A stretch of 33,280 nucleotides of DNA, from positions 1 through 33,280 of the forward strand of contig SWDR01000008.1 in the NCBI GenBank assembly GCA_005116815.1, read 5' to 3'. Numbering within the stretch: position 1 is the first letter of the stretch; the number at the start of each line of letters is the position of its first letter. A program made the translations under genes and the position numbers. Origin of the DNA: Nitrospira sp. GTDB taxonomy: Bacteria > Nitrospirota > Nitrospiria > Nitrospirales > Nitrospiraceae. The notes under the pieces were generated by a model, which did no database searches, had not been told where the DNA came from, and saw only the letters and a program-made list of their open reading frames with translations. Shown one piece after another: positions 7,214 through 33,049 of this stretch.

Positions 7214-7230
7214 GAACAACTCATGTGTCT

Positions 7231-9381
7231 ATGAAAATCACAACATCTTGTCATTGGTTGCTAGCTTGCCTGCTTACGCAGAGTTTCCCGTTGGACGCCG
7301 CTGCTGCAGTTGAGAGCCAAGCTCCTTCCGCTTCGACGTTGCCTCTTCAGGCTGGAGCGGTTCAGGCGACTGCTCCGGCAGCGATCTCAAAACTCACGTT
7401 ACCCGATGAAGGGCCTCGCTACGATTATCTTGCAGAGGGATCGAACTCGCTGCAGTTTCAAGAGGCGATTGATTCATTTAAGCATGGGGAATATGCCCTG
7501 GCTCGCGAAGGATTTTCCGCACTCGTCAAGCAGGATCCTGACAGCCGGCTGATGCCGTCGATCAAGGCATTTTTGGCGGAGATCACGTTGCGTGAAGACC
7601 CGACAACTCGCGGGCGGTCCGAAGCCATTCTTCAATATCGAGCCCAGGTTCGTCAGTATCAGAAAGATCCGAATACCTCACGTGCGCTCTGGAGGATCGG
7701 GGATCTGTATGTCGAAATGGGATGGTTGCAGGAGGCCATTATCGCCTATGAATATGCCACCTCGCATATACAGCTTCGAGCCGATGCCGACCGATCCCTG
7801 TTGAGTTTGGGTGTCATCCTTGAATCACGCGAGCGCTGGGTGGAAGCGGAGCGGGCGTTCGAGTCGGTTCGGAAGCGCACGAGCGACGAACGAATCCTCA
7901 GGCGTTCGACATTGGGATTGGCCAATGCCCTGTACGCGCTCCAGCGCAAGCGAGAGGCCCAACCTCTCTACGACATGCTCTACCAGCGATGGCCGGATCT
8001 CCTCAAAAGCGAACCGCAGTACTTGCAGCAGTATGGTGATGTGCTCGTCGGCACGAACGAGCGGCAGCGGGCCCGTGCAATCGACATCCTGCTGTTTAAC
8101 CTGTATCCGTCGCACCAGTATGCCGGCGCGGCACTCGTGCGTCTCGGCGATAGTCACCGCCAGCAGAATCAGTCAACCCAAGCGGAGCTGTTCTACCACG
8201 TCGCGCAGGAGCGGTATGTGGGTATGCCGGCCGCTGTGCTTGCTCGTATGCGCCTGGCGCAGATGGAAGAGCGGCCTGTTCAATCCGGGAAGGGCTCGGC
8301 GACGAACAGCGACAAGGGGACGGCAAGCCAGGGCGACGAGTCTGTGAACGCATCCAAGGGTGTGAAGGTCTATCAGGAGATTGCCAAGACCTATCAGGGA
8401 GATGTCCTCGGGAGTGAAGCGCTCTTCCATCTGGCGGAACATTACGAGTTACGAGGCGATCCGTTACGGGCCATCCAGGTCTATCAAGACGTTGCAAGAC
8501 GGGCTGGAACCATCCAAGACGATCCATGGCCTCAGATGGCGGGGCGTCATCTGACCAGCATCTTGAAACCCCAATTGGAAGCCGCACTCAAGGCCGGGAA
8601 AGATGTGCTGGCGGTGGCCCTGTTCCACAACCACGGACATGCGCCTGAGCATCAATATGCCGGGACGAAGACATTGTTAGCCGTCGCCGACACCCATCGT
8701 CGGCTGGGCTTCTCCAGCCAAGCATCGCGCCTCTATCAATTGCTGGTGCGGGATCGGAAGGCAGCCGCGTTGCACGAAGCGGCGCTTATCGGTCTTGGCG
8801 AGAGTTACGTGGATCAGCGGATGTATGCCGCCGCTCGGAATGTGTTCGAGAACTTTCGACTGCAATACCCGCAGAGTCCACAGACGATGCCGGTGCTGCG
8901 ACAATTGACCACGGCGATGCTTGAGCAAGGCGACCGTCCTGGTGCGATTCGATTGATGAGGCAATGGCTGCGGACGCACCCGAAGGCGCAGGAGCGGGGG
9001 TGGATGCAACTGACCTTGGCGAGAACGCTGGCCGCCGATCATCAACCGGCCGAGGCCGTGGCGGCATTCGAAGAAGCCGCACGCCACAAATTCATGCAGT
9101 CGCAAGGGGATAGGCTCCTGTTAGCGGATCTCTTGACCTCCTTGAAAAAACATCAGCAGGCCGTCGATCTGTATCAGAAAATTCTGGCGTCGAACCCGGC
9201 GCCGGATCAGGCCGAATGGGCGCGTTTGCAGATCGTCAGAAATCTCGCCACGCAGAAGTTGCATGGTCCGGTGCGCGCGGTCCTGACACCAGGCGCTGGT
9301 ACTGGCGATCCGCTCTTGTATCGGGCAGCGGAAGCGATACAGGCCAGTATCCGCGTCACCACCGACAAAGAAGGAGGATGA
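7231..9381 (+). CDS. Large exported TPR protein, first gene of the sigma54 regulatory operon
   Basis: A protein of 716 residues from ATG 7231 (a GTG at 7225 would add two). It begins with a signal peptide ending in a DAAAA stretch. The rest is an array of helical tetratricopeptide-like repeats (for example ALAREGFSALVKQDPDS, AELFYHVAQERY, AIRLMRQWLRTHPKAQ), with a low-complexity Ser/Gly/Lys insertion around residues 350-375. Nothing catalytic is visible. It is probably periplasmic and is co-transcribed with a kinase and sigma54 activator whose Shine-Dalgarno overlaps its last codons. It may report envelope or flagellar assembly status, but this is inference from context. I recognise no named family. 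Confidence 0.8.
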   Translation: MKITTSCHWLLACLLTQSFPLDAAAAVESQAPSASTLPLQAGAVQATAPAAISKLTLPDEGPRYDYLAEGSNSLQFQEAIDSFKHGEYALAREGFSALVKQDPDSRLMPSIKAFLAEITLREDPTTRGRSEAILQYRAQVRQYQKDPNTSRALWRIGDLYVEMGWLQEAIIAYEYATSHIQLRADADRSLLSLGVILESRERWVEAERAFESVRKRTSDERILRRSTLGLANALYALQRKREAQPLYDMLYQRWPDLLKSEPQYLQQYGDVLVGTNERQRARAIDILLFNLYPSHQYAGAALVRLGDSHRQQNQSTQAELFYHVAQERYVGMPAAVLARMRLAQMEERPVQSGKGSATNSDKGTASQGDESVNASKGVKVYQEIAKTYQGDVLGSEALFHLAEHYELRGDPLRAIQVYQDVARRAGTIQDDPWPQMAGRHLTSILKPQLEAALKAGKDVLAVALFHNHGHAPEHQYAGTKTLLAVADTHRRLGFSSQASRLYQLLVRDRKAAALHEAALIGLGESYVDQRMYAAARNVFENFRLQYPQSPQTMPVLRQLTTAMLEQGDRPGAIRLMRQWLRTHPKAQERGWMQLTLARTLAADHQPAEAVAAFEEAARHKFMQSQGDRLLLADLLTSLKKHQQAVDLYQKILASNPAPDQAEWARLQIVRNLATQKLHGPVRAVLTPGAGTGDPLLYRAAEAIQASIRVTTDKEGG

Positions 9382-9385
9382 TGTG

Positions 9386-10690
9386 ATGAATGGACATCCG
9401 GTTCCCGCACAGATGGATAGCGATTTGCTGCACGAAGCCTTTCGAAGCTTCGACGATGCGGCGGCGACGCTCCAACAGTCCTACCAGACCTTGACGTCCC
9501 GGTTGGAGCAGCTGGATGTCGAACTCGCCGACCGCAATGAGGCGTTACGAAAGAATTTACGTGTCAATGAAGAGTTGCGCGAGCATTTGACGGCGATCGT
9601 GGAGTCCCTGTCGACCGGTCTGCTCGTCATGGATGAAGCCGGCACCATTACGCGCTGTAATCAAGCAGGCACACAATTGCTCGGATTGCCGCACGAACAG
9701 ATCATCGGCCGTTCTTTGGCCACTTGCCTCAAAGACGCGCATTTGGACGGTGATGTCTATCCTCTGACCACGCAACAGGGTGCCGCGGTGTCTCTCTCGC
9801 AACGAGCCTTGCAGACGAGCGATGGACGTCAGGCGGGGAGCCTGGCCTTGATTCAGGATGTGACGGCCATGCGAGAGCTGGAGGATCGGCTGCAACGCCG
9901 CAATCGTCTCGCGGCTATGGGCGAGATGGTCGGGCGGATCGCCCACGAAATTCGGAACCCGCTCGGCAGTATCGAACTGTTCGCGTCGATGCTGCGCCGC
10001 GACTTACACGATGCGCCGGCCATGCGAGGCTATGCCGAACACATCTCCTCGTCGGTCCACATGATGAATCGTCTACTCACGAATCTGCTGCTCTATACCA
10101 AGCCCGACTGTTCCCATAGAGAGCGGCATGAGACGGAAGTCTTGATGCTGAATGCTTTAACCCTCGCCGCCCATGCCGTCGCCGGCGCCAGAGTGGATAT
10201 TCGTCTGGATGTCAATCCATTAGCATCCCACATGTGGTGCGATGCCGGCCAGATGAAGCAAGTGCTCCTCAACTTGATCCTGAACAGTATCCACGCCATG
10301 CCGAACGGTGGAACTTTGACGTTGTCGGCGAGACCGACTGCGGAGGCGACATCCGGCGGAGCAGGTATCTGTCTTTCGGTGTCGGATACGGGTATCGGCA
10401 TCCCGGCTGCGCAACGTTCGAGGATCTTCGATCCCTTCTTCACCACCAGGGATGAAGGCACCGGGTTAGGTCTGGCTATCGTCCACGCGATTGTCGAAGG
10501 GCATCGTGGCCGAATCGACGTCGAGAGTGAAGATGGCCGCGGCACCACATTTACCATCGTGCTCCCGAATCATCATACGACGAGCCCTCTGCCGATACAG
10601 GCATCGCCTGATCTGTCGTTCTCGGAGGGGTACCCTGCGTCTGAGTTGATCGCTGAACGATTGCTTGTTGGAGAGGAGACATCGGCATGA
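9386..10690 (+). CDS. Cytoplasmic PAS-histidine kinase, FleS/FlgS/AtoS type
   Basis: A 434-residue sensor kinase from ATG 9386 (AAGGAGG 8 bases upstream; a GTG at 9383 is the alternative). It has an N-terminal coiled coil (about residues 15-60), a PAS domain (about 65-165), a HisKA dimerisation helix with phospho-acceptor His187 in IAHEIRNP, and a HATPase domain with N-box (about 290-310), DTGIGIP G1 box (about 334), FDPFFTT F-box and GTGLGLA G2 box. There is no membrane span, so it senses an internal signal, as flagellar FleS/FlgS kinases do. It sits just upstream of, and overlaps, the gene for its probable partner, the sigma54 activator. Confidence 0.92.
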   Translation: MNGHPVPAQMDSDLLHEAFRSFDDAAATLQQSYQTLTSRLEQLDVELADRNEALRKNLRVNEELREHLTAIVESLSTGLLVMDEAGTITRCNQAGTQLLGLPHEQIIGRSLATCLKDAHLDGDVYPLTTQQGAAVSLSQRALQTSDGRQAGSLALIQDVTAMRELEDRLQRRNRLAAMGEMVGRIAHEIRNPLGSIELFASMLRRDLHDAPAMRGYAEHISSSVHMMNRLLTNLLLYTKPDCSHRERHETEVLMLNALTLAAHAVAGARVDIRLDVNPLASHMWCDAGQMKQVLLNLILNSIHAMPNGGTLTLSARPTAEATSGGAGICLSVSDTGIGIPAAQRSRIFDPFFTTRDEGTGLGLAIVHAIVEGHRGRIDVESEDGRGTTFTIVLPNHHTTSPLPIQASPDLSFSEGYPASELIAERLLVGEETSA

Positions 10691-12093
10691 CCGACCACAA
10701 TACAGAATTTCCGGTGACGGATGTTCCCGCACAGGCTGAACGAATTTTGATCGTCGACGATGATCCCTCCATGCGGATGGCTTTAATGGAGTCTGTTCGC
10801 CGGCTGGGTTACGACGTACAGGGTGCGATGGACGGCGCCGACGCCGTCGAGCTGGTCAGCCGCTATAAACCCTGGTTAGTGGTCACCGATTTGAAAATGC
10901 CCAGGCTTGGCGGACTCGATTTGATCAAGGAGATCAAGAGCCGTTCGCCACAGACGTTGATGGTGCTGATGACCGCCTATGGGACCGTGGAAACCGCCGT
11001 AGAGGCAATGAAGTATGGAGCGAGCGATTACATTCTCAAGCCGTTCTCGACCGATTTGCTTGAGCGGGTCATTGCCAATCTCAAAGCCCGTGGCGCGGAT
11101 GCGTCGTTGTCACCGGCTGTGCCGATCGATCAGCGGTCGATCCTAACACAAGATCCTGGTATGGCTCGGCTCCTCAGCACCGTTGAAGGAGTCGCTGCAA
11201 GCCAAGCCACTGTCCTCATTCATGGGGAAAGCGGCACAGGAAAAGAACTGCTGGCGCGCTTTATTCACAGCCGAAGTCCACGTGCCCATCGCCCGTTTAT
11301 CGCCGTCAATTGCGCGGCATTACCGGACGGGCTTCTCGAGAGCGAACTATTCGGCCATGAGCGGGGCGCCTTTACCGGCGCCATTATGAAGAAACTCGGC
11401 AAGTTCGAGATGGCACATACCGGCACCTTGTTGCTGGATGAAATCAGCGAAATGAACATGGGCTTGCAGGCCAAGTTGCTGCGGGTGATTCAGGAGCGAG
11501 AGGTGGATCGAGTCGGAGGGCGTGAGCCGGTGTCCGTGAATATTCGTCTCATTGCGACGACGAACCGTTCGCTGTATCACGAAGTCGAGCAGGGACGGTT
11601 CCGAGAGGATTTGTATTACCGGCTAAATGTCTTCCCCATCACCGTACCTCCATTGCGGGAACGGCCTGCGGACATTCCGTTGCTCGTGAGGCATTTCGTG
11701 GCGGTCTCCGCGGCGCGCAACGGCCTTCCCCAACCGGCGGTGTCGGCGGCGGCCTATGCCGTTCTTCAAGACCGGCGATGGAAAGGGAATGTACGCGAGT
11801 TGGAGAATGTCATGGAGCGTGCCGTGCTTTTAGCAGGGAACGAGCCGATTCTCCCAAGCCATTTATTGCTGGAGGCCGGCGCCCAGCCAACCGCCTCGGT
11901 GCCAGTCCCCTCCGTACCCCAGTCTTCAGTGAACGGATCGTTGTGGGAAATGGAGCGCGAGCTGATTTTTCAAACCTTGGCTCGTGTGCATGAGAATCGG
12001 ACGCATGCGGCGAAAGAACTGGGCATCAGTATTCGAACCTTGCGAAACAAGCTGCGCGAGTACCGGGGGGAAACGTGCTCAGTCTCGGCTTGA
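10687..12093 (+). CDS. Sigma54-dependent response regulator, FleR/FlgR/NtrC type
   Basis: A 468-residue activator with a CheY-like receiver (about residues 18-135; phospho-acceptor Asp68 in VVTDLKMP), an AAA+ sigma54-interaction domain with Walker A GESGTGKE (about 180-187) and the sigma54-contacting GAFTGA loop (227-232), and a C-terminal Fis-type helix-turn-helix (THAAKELGISIRTLRNKL). All elements needed for phosphorylation, ATP hydrolysis and open-complex formation are intact. Its ATG overlaps the kinase stop in an ATGA, implying translational coupling. It is the obvious activator for the sigma54 promoters at 7198, 12217 and 21463; the first would be autoregulatory. Confidence 0.93.
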   Translation: MTDHNTEFPVTDVPAQAERILIVDDDPSMRMALMESVRRLGYDVQGAMDGADAVELVSRYKPWLVVTDLKMPRLGGLDLIKEIKSRSPQTLMVLMTAYGTVETAVEAMKYGASDYILKPFSTDLLERVIANLKARGADASLSPAVPIDQRSILTQDPGMARLLSTVEGVAASQATVLIHGESGTGKELLARFIHSRSPRAHRPFIAVNCAALPDGLLESELFGHERGAFTGAIMKKLGKFEMAHTGTLLLDEISEMNMGLQAKLLRVIQEREVDRVGGREPVSVNIRLIATTNRSLYHEVEQGRFREDLYYRLNVFPITVPPLRERPADIPLLVRHFVAVSAARNGLPQPAVSAAAYAVLQDRRWKGNVRELENVMERAVLLAGNEPILPSHLLLEAGAQPTASVPVPSVPQSSVNGSLWEMERELIFQTLARVHENRTHAAKELGISIRTLRNKLREYRGETCSVSA

Positions 12094-15156: not shown

Positions 15157-16149
15157 ATGGCTACGCAATTAACCGGTGAGAAAAAAGCGGCGATCCTCCT
15201 CCGAGCGATCGGTGAAGATGCGGCGGCGCTGGTCATGAAGAACCTCGACCCCAAGGAAATCAGAAAATTGGGCACGTTCATGAACGATACCGCCAATATT
15301 TCGCAAGAAGAAGAGCAGACGGTGATGGGGGATTTTGAAAAAGCGAGCGCGTCCGGCGAGGTGTCCTTTAAAGGGAAGGAATACATCAAAACCATTTTGA
15401 CAAAGGCGCTCGGTCCTGAAAAAGCAGCCCGTCTTCTTGAGTCCATGAATAGCCGAGTCTATCCGGGACTCGATGCCTTGAAGTGGGTGGATGCCAAGGC
15501 CGTGTCTCAAATGCTGAAGATTGAGCATCCGCAAACCATCTCTCTCATCATGGCCCATATGGAGCCGGACCAGGCAGGACAGGTGCTCGTTGGCTTGCCA
15601 GCCGAGCTGCGGGCGGATGTGGCCCATCGGCTGGCCACGATGGAGGAAGTGCAGCCGGATGTGCTTGAGGAATTGAGTGGTGCGCTCCAAGATTTGCTGA
15701 TTGCCAGCTCCGGCGTCCAATCCCTGAGCATCGGTGGTTCTAAGGTGATCGCGGATATTCTCACTCGGGTGGATAAAGCGACCGAAGGCGGCATTATGGC
15801 GAAGATTGCCGAGCGGAATCAGGCCCTGGCCGATGCCATCCGTGCCTTGATGTTCGTGTTCGACGATTTGATCAAACTCGATGATCGCGGGATGCAAGAG
15901 CTGATGAAGGAAGTCAGCAAGGAAGATTTGCCTGTCGCGCTCCGTGGAGCCAGTCCTGACGTGAGAGATAAGTTCCTGAAGAACATGTCAAGCCGCGCGT
16001 CAGAAATGCTGAAAGAAGACATGGAGGCTCGAGGCCCGGCGAAGGTAGCGGATGTGGAGAAGGCCCAGCAGAATATTCTGAAAGTCTGCCGGAAGTTGGA
16101 AGAAGAGGGCCGTATTGTGATCTCAGGCGCAGGGGAGGCGCTGGTGTAA
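15157..16149 (+). CDS. fliG: Flagellar motor switch protein FliG
   Basis: A 330-residue C-ring protein that transmits torque between stators and rotor and sets rotation direction. It has the N-terminal FliF-binding domain (EKKAAILLRAIGEDAAALVMKNL at the start), the middle domain with the EHPQTI motif, and the C-terminal torque helix (DDLIKLDDRGMQELMKEV) carrying the charged residues that meet MotA. Length is canonical. The ATG has GAGGAA about 10 bases upstream. The next gene starts immediately after the stop codon with no gap. Confidence 0.97.
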   Translation: MATQLTGEKKAAILLRAIGEDAAALVMKNLDPKEIRKLGTFMNDTANISQEEEQTVMGDFEKASASGEVSFKGKEYIKTILTKALGPEKAARLLESMNSRVYPGLDALKWVDAKAVSQMLKIEHPQTISLIMAHMEPDQAGQVLVGLPAELRADVAHRLATMEEVQPDVLEELSGALQDLLIASSGVQSLSIGGSKVIADILTRVDKATEGGIMAKIAERNQALADAIRALMFVFDDLIKLDDRGMQELMKEVSKEDLPVALRGASPDVRDKFLKNMSSRASEMLKEDMEARGPAKVADVEKAQQNILKVCRKLEEEGRIVISGAGEALV

Positions 16150-17199
16150 ATGGCGAGTCCCCTGAGTCTGGAATCCACCATGTCGCAGCCCGCATCGCGT
16201 GCCACCTGGCAGCGCGATACGTCCATCTTGATCGTCGACGATGAGCTGTCGATCCAGAAGTTGTTGACCGTATTGCTCCAATCGGATGGGTACCGTATCC
16301 GTGCGGTTGGGTCGGCGCGTGAAGCGCTCGCGGCGCTCAAGATCGCACCGGCCTCGTTGATGATCACCGACATTAAGTTGCCGGACCAGGATGGCCTATC
16401 GCTGCTCCAGCAGGCCTCCAAGATCGATCCACGCATGATCGGGGTGGTGATGACGGGATATGCCACGGTCGATCTCGCCGTGCAAGCGATGAAGGCCGGT
16501 GCAACTGAATTTCTGATGAAACCCTTCGAGTGCGACATGGTGCTCCTGACGGTCAAACGGCTCCTCGAGCTTTATCGCCTGCGGGTTGAAAATGCCGTGT
16601 TGAAACAGGCGGTGGTGCGTGAGGGCGGCGTGCGGTTGGAGAATCCGTCATTAATCGATTTCGGGACCGGCCATCAGTTCGTCACGACCAGCGGCCCGTC
16701 CGACTACGACCGGGGGATTGCCGAGGGCGAACGTCGAGCGGCGGTGCGAGACGAAGTTTCGCAGCGGCGCGAGCAGACGCTGTTCGCGAATGCCGTGCAG
16801 CAGCTGGAGGAAGTCTGGAGATCGTTCGGCAGCACGATGGAGTCCGATGTCACTGCCTTGGCCTTCAGCTTAGTGAGCAGGATCTTACGGGGAACGATCG
16901 CAGAGCATCGGGATGTCGTGTTGGCGCAGCTGAAAGCCGCCTTGGCGACCATTCGTGAATCAGGCGTGGTGACGGTCCGCACCCACCCCTCCGATGTGTC
17001 GGTCCTTGAAGCGGCGAGGCCGGAAATGAGTCGCGATCGAGAGACAGCGTTAGTCCTGCACATTGAAGGTGATGCATCACTCTCACGAGGCAGTTGTGTC
17101 GTAGCCACGACGAATCGATTGGTCGATGCTTCCCTGGATGCACAGTTGCTGCGTCTTGGGGAGGTCTTACAGAAACGGGGGCGTGGTGGATCTCGCTGA
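16150..17199 (+). CDS. fliH: CheY-like receiver domain fused to FliH (flagellar ATPase regulator)
   Basis: A 349-residue two-part protein. Residues about 25-142 are a complete response-regulator receiver: acidic pair D30/D31, phospho-acceptor D74 in MITDIKLP, T102 in VVMTGYA and K124 in FLMKPF. After a helical linker, residues about 185-345 are FliH-like: a GxxxG (G189-G193) in a charged helix, then the domain related to V-ATPase subunit E with a VRTHPSDV motif, GSCVVAT, and VDASLDAQLLRLGEVL. FliH holds the ATPase FliI at the export gate; here it lies exactly between fliG and fliI, the normal fliH position. The fusion implies that export-ATPase docking could be controlled by phosphorylation. 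ATG 16150 has GGGGAGG about 11 bases upstream; ATG 16180 (residue 11) is possible. Confidence 0.88.
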   Translation: MASPLSLESTMSQPASRATWQRDTSILIVDDELSIQKLLTVLLQSDGYRIRAVGSAREALAALKIAPASLMITDIKLPDQDGLSLLQQASKIDPRMIGVVMTGYATVDLAVQAMKAGATEFLMKPFECDMVLLTVKRLLELYRLRVENAVLKQAVVREGGVRLENPSLIDFGTGHQFVTTSGPSDYDRGIAEGERRAAVRDEVSQRREQTLFANAVQQLEEVWRSFGSTMESDVTALAFSLVSRILRGTIAEHRDVVLAQLKAALATIRESGVVTVRTHPSDVSVLEAARPEMSRDRETALVLHIEGDASLSRGSCVVATTNRLVDASLDAQLLRLGEVLQKRGRGGSR

Positions 17200-18493
17200 A
17201 CTGATTGAACGGACAGATCCACTTGCCGTTTCCGGCCGTGTGGCGCAGGCGGTCGGGATTGTGATCGAGGGGTATGGCCCCATGACTTCTGTGGGAGAGC
17301 TCTGCGAGGTGACGCGCGAAGACGGAGAAGGAGCCGTGCTCGCCGAGGTCGTCGGATTTCGCGGTGACCGTGTACTGTTGATGCCGCTTGGGGAGATGCG
17401 AGGGATCGGTCCTGGGAGCCGGCTCTTGATGAAAGGGCATTGTGCGTCGGTGCCGGTTGGTCCGCAACTGCTCGGTCGGGTGCTGGATGGGCTTGGTGAA
17501 CCGCTCGATGGAAAGGGTCCTTTGGTGACCGAGCGTCAATATCCGCTCCATGCGGCCCCCCTCAATCCGCTTCAGCGCGCGCGCATTACCAAACCGCTCG
17601 ATCTCGGTGTCCGGGCGATCAATGCCTGTCTGACATGTGGCCTAGGCCAAAAAATCGGGATCTTTGCCAGTGCGGGTGTGGGCAAGAGCGTCTTGCTCGG
17701 CATGATGAGCCGCTACACCAGAGCCGACGTGAATGTGATTGCCTTGATCGGTGAACGAGGCAGAGAAGTGAACGAATTCCTCGAACGGGACCTCACGCCG
17801 GCCGCACTGCAACGGTCGGTCGTCATTGTGGCCACGTCGGATCAGCCTCCGCTGGTGCGGTTGCGGGGCGCATTGATCGCGACGGCGATTGCAGAGTATT
17901 TTCGCGATTGTGGAAAGCAGGTCCTTTTGATGATGGACTCGCTGACCCGTTTAGCCCATAGCCAGCGTGAAGTAGGGCTTGCCATCGGCGAACCACCGAC
18001 CACAAAGGGATATACGCCCTCGGTCTTTACGTTTCTTCCAAAGCTCTTGGAACGAGTCGGGACTGGTCCTGGATCCGGCACGATCACCGGACTCTATACG
18101 GTGTTGATGGACGGCGACGAGGTGTCAGACCCTATTGCTGAAACTGTGCGATCCATCCTCGATGGGCATATTGTGCTGTCACGGCAGATGGCCGCGCGCA
18201 ATCATTTCCCGGCGATCGACCTGCTGAATAGTACGAGCCGGGTCATGAAAGACATCGTGGGGCGCGAGCATTATTCGGCAGCCCGGTCCATGGTCGAACT
18301 CATGGCTCGCTACCAACAATCGGAAGATCTCATTCTATTGGGTGCCTATAAGGCGGGGACGAATAAGGCGCTGGACCGGGCCGTATCCGCACAAGATGGG
18401 ATCGATGCCTTTCTTCGACAGGAGATCGACCAACCGGCTGATCTTGGGGCATCGGTTCAGGATTTACTCACGCTGATGAAGAGCACCGCATGA
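17183..18493 (+). CDS. fliI: Flagellum-specific ATP synthase FliI
   Basis: The 436-residue ATPase of the flagellar type III export apparatus, related to F1-ATPase beta. It has Walker A at about residues 162-169 (ASAGVGKS), Walker B in QVLLMMDSLTRLAHSQREVGLA and a conserved GEPPTTKGYTPSVF segment. The frame is open from 17126, but the family starts close to the 'DLAELIERTDP' helix, so GTG 17183 (or GTG 17186) is chosen, with a GGGGG just upstream. It overlaps the end of the FliH-fusion gene by 17 bases and the fliJ start by 4, so all three are translationally coupled and probably made in fixed ratio. Confidence 0.95.
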   Translation: MVDLAELIERTDPLAVSGRVAQAVGIVIEGYGPMTSVGELCEVTREDGEGAVLAEVVGFRGDRVLLMPLGEMRGIGPGSRLLMKGHCASVPVGPQLLGRVLDGLGEPLDGKGPLVTERQYPLHAAPLNPLQRARITKPLDLGVRAINACLTCGLGQKIGIFASAGVGKSVLLGMMSRYTRADVNVIALIGERGREVNEFLERDLTPAALQRSVVIVATSDQPPLVRLRGALIATAIAEYFRDCGKQVLLMMDSLTRLAHSQREVGLAIGEPPTTKGYTPSVFTFLPKLLERVGTGPGSGTITGLYTVLMDGDEVSDPIAETVRSILDGHIVLSRQMAARNHFPAIDLLNSTSRVMKDIVGREHYSAARSMVELMARYQQSEDLILLGAYKAGTNKALDRAVSAQDGIDAFLRQEIDQPADLGASVQDLLTLMKSTA

Positions 18494-18930
18494 AACTCGA
18501 TGCGGTACGACGCTATCGTGCACAAGTGGAAGACCTGTTGCGTATGGACTTGCTTCACGCTCGCCAGAATCTTCAGGATGCTGAATCCGCCTATCAGGCC
18601 CTCGACGAACAGGCGCGGATGACGGCTGAGCGGTATGTAGCCAAGGCCAGCAGCGGGATCGTGTTGGAGGAGTTTCTTGAATGGCAGGTCACCTGTGACG
18701 CGGAAGCCGTCTTGCTGACGCAAGCCTGGCAGGCTGAATGCCGGTGCCGTGAAGAATGGCATCAGAAGCAGCAAGAGTTGCAGCTTGCGATGCAGGAGCG
18801 TCGGACACTCGACCGTCTTGCCGAGCGGTTACGTCAGCAGCAGCGAGTGATCCAGTATCGAGCCGAGCAATCGCAAATGGATGAGTCCGCGCGCCGTACG
18901 AGCGGAATATCTCGTTCGCATAATTCATGA
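18490..18930 (+). CDS. fliJ: Flagellar export protein FliJ
   Basis: A 146-residue, almost wholly helical, Gln/Glu/Arg-rich protein predicted to form an antiparallel coiled coil. FliJ is the stalk-like partner of the FliI ATPase, comparable to F1 gamma, and opens the export gate for proton-driven secretion. Sequence conservation is low in this family. The call rests on size, the pattern (VEDLLRMDLLHARQNLQDAE) and the position directly after fliI, with the ATG overlapping the fliI stop. Confidence 0.88.
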   Translation: MKLDAVRRYRAQVEDLLRMDLLHARQNLQDAESAYQALDEQARMTAERYVAKASSGIVLEEFLEWQVTCDAEAVLLTQAWQAECRCREEWHQKQQELQLAMQERRTLDRLAERLRQQQRVIQYRAEQSQMDESARRTSGISRSHNS

Positions 18931-32281: not shown

Positions 32282-33049
32282 ATGGTACATGAGCTTGCAT
32301 ACATTGGATCTTTCCCTATGGCCTTGAATGCCATGATGTCAGGCCTGGGAGAGGCCACGATGGCGCTGTCTCCTCTTCCGAGTCTCATTGCGCTCTGCCT
32401 GCTCGGTCTCCTGATCTTCGGAGGCCTGTGGTTCAGGAGACTGCGCCCGCATGGATTCCGTCGAAGTCGGTCCAGGGATAGTGTCCCTGAGGTGGCGGCC
32501 TACGATTACGTGACCGGGTTACCCACCAGGCGATTATTTGAAACCTTACTGGATCAAGCGGTCGGTCGCTCTGCCAAAACCGGTCGCCCCCTCACGGTGC
32601 TCGTGGTGGAGCTGGAACATTTCCGGATGGTGGCAGAGAGTCAAGGCCAGGCGAATAGTAATGCACTCGTGCGTGTGCAGGCGGCCAGAGTAAAGGGTGT
32701 TCTGCGCTCGATGGACACGGTCGCGCGGCTGACGCAGGACCAATTCGCCGTGATCGCCGACAATCTCACGTCCCATCACGAGGTGTCGGCGATTGTGGAA
32801 AAACTGCAGACGACAGTCGGGCTCCCTCTCACCTTGGACGGTCATGAGTTGTTCCTGACGTGCCGCATCGGCATCGCACGGTATCCGGATGATGCGACGG
32901 AACAGGAAGGCTTGCTTGCACAGGCCCTGCAGGCCGTGAAGCATGCCAAGTCCCATGGACAGGCCGTACGGTTTTCCTCGTCTGAGACCCATTCAACCGC
33001 TCATGAGCCTGCCCAGACAGCGACCTCGTTCGCCGATCTTCTTCCGTAA
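32282..33049 (+). CDS. Membrane-anchored degenerate GGDEF-domain protein
   Basis: A 255-residue protein with an N-terminal hydrophobic segment (about residues 35-57) and a GGDEF-type domain (about 78-235). The fold is recognisable: YDYVTGLPTRRLFETLL, LTVLVVELEHFRMV, ARLTQDQFAVIADN and a region ending GIARYPDDATEQEGLLAQA. The catalytic loop GGDEF is TQDQF, and the first metal-binding Asp is Glu (ELEHF for DLDHF), so diguanylate cyclase activity is unlikely. It may bind nucleotides, act as a scaffold, or be a c-di-GMP effector by another site. The start could be ATG 32282 or ATG 32318. It lies 200 bases after fliA in the same direction. Confidence 0.8.
   Translation: MVHELAYIGSFPMALNAMMSGLGEATMALSPLPSLIALCLLGLLIFGGLWFRRLRPHGFRRSRSRDSVPEVAAYDYVTGLPTRRLFETLLDQAVGRSAKTGRPLTVLVVELEHFRMVAESQGQANSNALVRVQAARVKGVLRSMDTVARLTQDQFAVIADNLTSHHEVSAIVEKLQTTVGLPLTLDGHELFLTCRIGIARYPDDATEQEGLLAQALQAVKHAKSHGQAVRFSSSETHSTAHEPAQTATSFADLLP

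Follow-up and report, generated by a model that had tools for sequence, protein, structure and literature searches.

In Nitrospira, the flagellar export protein FliH carries a response-regulator receiver domain before its stalk. The fusion was found in the window (the whole stretch of 33,280 nucleotides analysed here), was confirmed as real, and is widespread in the Nitrospira family and under selection; its mode of action is inferred. FliH has a part in bringing the export ATPase to the flagellar base, and accounts of how export is controlled usually refer to assembly checkpoints and gene expression. From the fusion, it seems possible that flagellum assembly in Nitrospira is under the direct control of a two-component signal. 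In the favoured reading, to which we give about an even chance, the receiver was copied from the sigma-54 regulator that heads the same gene cluster, termed RR2, to the base-facing end of a flagellar FliH, and its phosphorylation would alter FliH2-FliI docking, switching export.

The fusion gene and its protein

The fusion gene (16150..17199, forward strand) is a single open frame of 349 aa with an ATG start and without an internal stop. It is directly preceded by the end of fliG (15157..16149; Pfam FliG_N, FliG_M and FliG_C) and followed by the export ATPase gene fliI (17126..18493; Pfam ATP-synt_ab and T3SS_ATPase_C), whose frame, taken from the first ATG (17126), overlaps the end of fliH, and by fliJ (18490..18930; Pfam FliJ, 6.9e-9), all on the same strand.

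The receiver spans residues 25-135 (16222..16554, forward; Pfam 1.3e-22), with PF00072 Response_reg matched at residues 26-130 at 80.5 bits against a cut-off of 30.2. The codon of the phospho-acceptor D74 lies at 16369-16371 (forward), and the other receiver residues are D30/D31, T102 and K124. Residues 136-157 (16555..16620, forward), judged by their kinship to be alpha-5 and the linker helix, close the part that can be aligned to RR2, and are followed by a junction, residues 158-185 (16621..16704, forward), with a near-invariant F171 (121/124). Residues 186-345 (16705..17184, forward) are the predicted FliH stalk and C-terminal FliI-binding domain, assigned by Pfam (2.9e-16; PF02108 FliH at residues 209-334, 60 bits against a cut-off of 24.1), by a profile of the post-receiver part, which matched the solved Salmonella FliH (PDB 5B0O) at 7.9e-9 through the C-terminal domain, and by conservation (G189xxxG193, H279, P280, D282, C316 and D326). 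Neither an AAA+ sigma-54 domain nor an HTH was found in the protein with Pfam, which sets it outside the NtrC-type regulators.

The original prediction of a receiver fused to FliH in one protein was thus upheld by the domain search, with both domains above their Pfam cut-offs. Its FliH-like part was borne out by the Pfam and 5B0O profile matches, and the residues it listed (D30, D31, D74, T102, K124, G189xxxG193, THPSDV at 278-283 and VDASLDAQLL at 325-334) were all in place. The N-terminal tail, residues 1-22, is variable among fusions. An internal P[LF]xxF in the junction ends at F171, and its alignment to the N-terminal motif of ancestral FliH is only suggestive; the junction is a possible remnant of that docking motif.

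The flagellar cluster

Apart from the genes named above, the cluster in the window includes a rod gene, fliE, fliF, a flgE-like gene, fliL, fliM, a fliN-like gene, fliO, fliP, fliQ, fliR, flhB, flhA and fliA, together with genes for an SRP54-type GTPase and a ParA-type ATPase, which are likely flhF and flhG. A GGDEF diguanylate-cyclase-like gene (32282-33049) follows fliA at the end of the cluster. Upstream lie a PAS-HisKA-HATPase kinase gene, FleS/FlrB-like by domains (Pfam) and place (9383..10690, forward), which encodes a candidate partner of the receiver, and a FleR-like NtrC-type response regulator gene (10687..12093, forward; Pfam Response_reg, Sigma54_activat and HTH_8). Among 61 family loci compared for gene order, this pair precedes the cluster in 54, the remaining 7 ending before that point. 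A TPR-repeat protein gene (7225-9381) stands directly before the kinase gene; it takes the same place in 54 of the 61 family loci (the rest end earlier) and was also seen in 10 of 20 loci outside the family.

Distribution of the fusion and FliH copy number

FliH was found in 129 of 175 genomes of the Nitrospira family, and the loci of all 129 were examined. The receiver was present in the FliH frame in 124 of them; the fusion is no isolated case. Full-length two-domain matches were obtained in the chromosomes of Candidatus Nitrospira defluvii (FP929003.1) and Nitrospira moscoviensis (NZ_CP011801.1). With the frame open across both domains in 124 of 129 genomes, these two chromosomes included, a sequencing error hiding a stop and start between the domains, or a chimera, was ruled out as the source of the fusion.

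Ordinary FliH had been expected to lack a receiver, and this held: five family genomes (G319, G320, G143, G060 and G324) have a FliH without one, and it was absent from all 41 FliH frames examined outside the family (35 genomes). Three outside loci (L033, L133 and L135) gave no FliH frame with the FliH of the window as query and are not among the 41. In a phylum sample of 198 genomes, no open frame with an above-cut-off FliH match from outside the family exceeded 294 aa, by estimate too short for the fusion, and FliH frames of at least 345 aa were found in 37 of 38 family cases; among these 37 is G143, a plain FliH whose frame merely extends upstream. A survey of the class gave the fusion in 91 of 196 genomes, all 91 within the same family.

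Searches of two other phyla gave weak negative results. A two-domain match was obtained in none of 297 genomes sampled from the phylum of Sulfidibacter (best seven candidates per genome scored, without a positive control), with receiver-only matches in 7 of the 297. None of 398 genomes sampled from the phylum of Pseudomonas luteola gave a match (best five candidates per genome scored, again without a positive control). We take these phyla to be Acidobacteriota and Pseudomonadota, respectively.

A separate complete fliH elsewhere would have refuted the original prediction. In the window's own genome (71.6% complete) one FliH match was above the cut-off and two weak ones were below it (E 0.067 and 0.147). 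A single match was found in 128 of the 129 family genomes and two in G214, where both FliH frames are 349 aa and the receiver was checked in one. A hidden extra plain fliH was rejected, none above the cut-off being seen in the window's own genome, as far as it is complete, or in the relatives, the second G214 frame aside.

The number of origins was addressed with a 65-row tree built from FliG+FliI, in which 40 genomes have the fusion, 5 are family members with a plain FliH and 20 come from outside the family. A single change of state suffices on it. Since the branch uniting the fusion rows is weak (57), and the divergent fusion genera G203, G292 and G317 were not resolved from plain genomes, a single gain would be the simplest reading; alternatively, the fusion may have been gained at the base of the family and lost in the plain genera.

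Origin of the receiver

In G055, G110 and G281 the nearest non-FliH receiver is that of RR2, encoded in the same cluster at a distance of some 10.5 to 10.7 kb upstream. G060 is without the fusion; there, the closest receiver to that of the window lies about 11 kb upstream of the plain fliH. RR2 frames are 482 to 508 aa long and match NtrC-type regulators over the whole length (one example tested); in all 14 rows counted, RR2 has the acceptor aspartate, T and K. From its place and a C-terminal motif, rather than from a family match, RR2 is presumed to be FleQ- or FlrA-like. The best solved matches of the fusion receiver were DctD/NtrC-type, with CheY proteins further down.

Alignment of the fusion receiver with RR2 by hhalign gave E 1.6e-46, extended to about residue 156 and had 39% identity over 134 columns; residues 136-157 alone gave E 5.8e-5 with a probability of 66%. 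As the similarity spans the linker helix and stops near residue 156, what was transplanted seems to be a receiver together with its signalling helix.

In a tree of 45 receivers, 15 FliH receivers formed one clade (100/99), grouped with RR2 at 98/98, and a larger quick tree with 36 FliH receivers agreed. The most divergent fusions (G203, G292 and G317), missing from the 15- and 36-receiver samples, were added in a 51-row tree; 20 FliH receivers again formed one clade, grouped with RR2 at 98/97, and support for the one group fell from 100/99 to 91/89. No CheY row was included in the receiver trees. Duplication of the FleR receiver was rejected as the source, a FliH+FleR clade having p-AU 0.014 (45 rows) and 0.0007 (51 rows). 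By these comparisons the fusion receiver and linker helix have their kin in RR2, as opposed to the FleR-like regulator. The trees favour, without significance, a position of the FliH receivers within the RR2 of the family rather than beside it; RR2 as a separate sister group was not rejected (p-AU 0.089 and 0.234 with 45 rows, 0.070 with 51), and for this reason the copying event may date back further than it seems from the tree.

The RR2-like frame of the window's own genome (L216:1902-2930, G000 contig C5) consists of a receiver and sigma-54 start followed by a kinase-like end, and is apparently chimeric, misassembled where two genes share a sigma-54 stretch; a whole RR2 regulator is present in L221, a close relative.

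Phosphorylation site and selection

Across the alignment of 124 fusions, D74, K124 and P125 are invariant, and R145 of the linker helix is likewise kept in all 124. One row is truncated ahead of positions 30 and 31. In the 123 fusions with these columns, position 30 has D in 121 and E in 2, and position 31 has D in 109, A in 10, H in 3 and G in 1; position 102 has T in 120 of the 124, S in 3 and A in 1. The strict five-residue set is complete in 106 of 124. The claim that every catalytic residue is kept is right for the window and these 106 fusions, and fails for the second acidic residue, D31 being replaced by A, H or G in 14. Thirteen of these losses are in genus g2 (L092, L094, L095, L100, L106, L149, L154, L162-L165, L168 and L184) and one (G127) is in g5. 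G247 is without both D31 and T102 (T102A). With D31 gone in 13 g2 fusions, and T102 also in G247, a stepwise loss of phosphorylation in part of genus g2 is possible.

Median pairwise dN/dS came to 0.139 in the receiver and 0.145 in FliH, with 0.147 and 0.165 in the linker helix and junction between them and 0.397 in the N-terminal tail (483 to 509 non-independent pairs per segment, dS of 0.1-1 kept, three cut-off rows dropped). The receiver value is as low as that of FliH, and purifying selection on the receiver is supported. Among the five segments compared, conservation is highest in the linker helix, with a mean top-residue frequency of 0.75 against 0.67 for the receiver.

These data bear on an alternative that we consider unlikely, namely that the receiver is a structural module for dimerisation or docking, in which phosphorylation no longer matters and the site is kept by inertia. 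The rank of the linker helix in conservation and the loss of D31 in 14 fusions, with T102 lost in one of these, would suit such a module; the invariance of D74 and K124 in all 124 fusions, and a receiver dN/dS as low as that of FliH, argue against it. The same losses (14 of the 123 fusions, G247 lacking T102 too) count against a phosphorylation switch, as does the conservation of the receiver in so far as it could reflect folding and dimerisation.

Candidate kinase partners

The kinase encoded at 9383 had been proposed as partner of the fusion receiver. This was not supported as stated: the gene directly adjoins the NtrC-type regulator gene at 10687, whose product is its presumed partner, and the clade of FliH and FleR receivers was rejected (above). 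The 9383 kinase may still serve the fusion receiver, since the conserved cluster contains both genes in 54 of the 61 family loci, the other 7 being too short to show it.

Nine receiver positions, which we take to be those of kinase contact, were compared in nine genomes, of which G203 was dropped and eight were usable. At these positions the fusion receiver matched RR2 better than FleR in seven of the eight genomes, with a tie in one. No clear partner kinase was found upstream of RR2 in N. defluvii among the seven frames scanned of 14 in 10.4 kb; a phage-type integrase adjoins RR2 there, and the far end holds a HATPase fragment and another NtrC-type regulator. The stretch just upstream of RR2 in this genome (L312:4178-10005), with the phage-type integrase and a replication-protein-like gene, is perhaps a mobile element beside the flagellar cluster.

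According to excerpts of two papers, kinases of the FlgS/FleS/FlrB type require the export apparatus as well as the MS ring and rotor (PMC7064773, PMC3930126); direct contact is reported for Campylobacter jejuni FlgS, and none was detected by the authors for FlrB or FleS (PMC7064773, excerpt). Given this dependence, a kinase near the flagellar base is plausible. The signal might run in reverse, with the receiver-bearing FliH acting as a phosphate sink or competing target. The flagellar kinase and its transcription regulators would in this way respond to how much FliH there is or to its docking, and gene expression would receive feedback from the state of assembly. The dependence of such kinases on the basal body would agree with this, as would the presence of kinase, FleR and fliH in one conserved cluster. 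The kinship of the FliH receiver to RR2 and not FleR, and the kinase-contact positions, speak against it only as far as sharing of the FleR kinase is concerned; we consider feedback of this kind improbable overall.

Proposed mechanism

The docking switch would date from an early forebear of the Nitrospira family or from a time inside the family itself. A copy of the RR2 segment for receiver and linker helix would have been joined to the beginning of fliH, and the fused gene would have replaced the plain fliH. This would place the receiver at the expected base-facing end of FliH. In Salmonella, FliH forms a dimeric stalk; it touches FliN and FlhA with its extreme N-terminus and grips FliI with its C-terminal domains, and these contacts help to place FliH2-FliI at the flagellar base (excerpts of PMC9114704 and PMC7911332).

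In regulators of the NtrC/DctD type, the receiver dimer and linker helix rearrange. D74 of the fusion would be phosphorylated by the histidine kinase serving RR2 or by the neighbouring 9383 kinase, upon which receiver dimer and linker helix would likewise rearrange, altering the docking of FliH2-FliI at FliN/FlhA. Export would thus be switched by the same signal as reaches the transcriptional regulator, its sign (on or off) not being predicted. The wider proposal, that one kinase signal sets flagellar transcription and also acts, independently of transcription, on how the export ATPase docks and how active it is, through a sigma-54 regulator's receiver on the stalk, we hold to be well conceivable, if short of probable. 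A point against the docking switch is the variable N-terminal tail of the fusion, as opposed to the extreme N-terminus with Trp-7 and Trp-10 by which Salmonella FliH docks (PMC9114704, excerpt).

A CheY-like receiver that binds FliM or FliN, replacing the usual FliH N-terminus by a phosphorylation-dependent dock on the C-ring, would fit the FliM of the window, which starts with MEKILSQDEIDALL, presumably the usual CheY-binding motif, and the docking of FliH on FliN (PMC9114704, excerpt), and is very unlikely given the DctD/NtrC-type structural matches ahead of CheY proteins and the RR2 kinship in trees that held no CheY row.

If the receiver-bearing FliH is controlled by phosphorylation as in the docking switch, the export machine itself would be a response-regulator output across most of one bacterial family. 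The evolutionary route would be the copying of a regulator's receiver and signalling helix onto a machine part of the same gene cluster. D74 offers a one-residue test in the complete chromosomes of N. moscoviensis and N. defluvii, and being directly testable the fusion is of solid interest.

Comparison with known systems

In line with the original prediction, which knew of no two-component signal acting directly on FliH, no description of a receiver on FliH was found in the open-licence literature among the matches listed, an absence that is no proof; in PMC2674601, on FliH glycine repeats, terms such as receiver or fusion do not occur. With the FliH/SctL(YscL) family of export-ATPase stalks the fusion shares the FliH C-terminal domain, the GxxxG and the place between fliG and fliI, and differs in having a receiver and linker helix before the stalk, which the plain FliH of relatives lacks. 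With NtrC/DctD-type regulators such as RR2 it shares the receiver and the alpha-5/linker helix, whereas its output is FliH and not a sigma-54 AAA+ and DNA-binding module. FleS/FleR, FlrB/FlrC and FlgS/FlgR are kinase-regulator pairs like that in the cluster of the fusion and depend on the basal body (PMC7064773, excerpt); in the excerpts their target is a transcription regulator, whereas here an extra receiver sits on the export machinery. CheY on the C-ring is a receiver acting directly on the flagellar machine (PMC7911332, excerpt), as the fusion may do, but CheY is a free protein acting on rotation, whereas the fusion receiver is joined to the stalk of the export ATPase.
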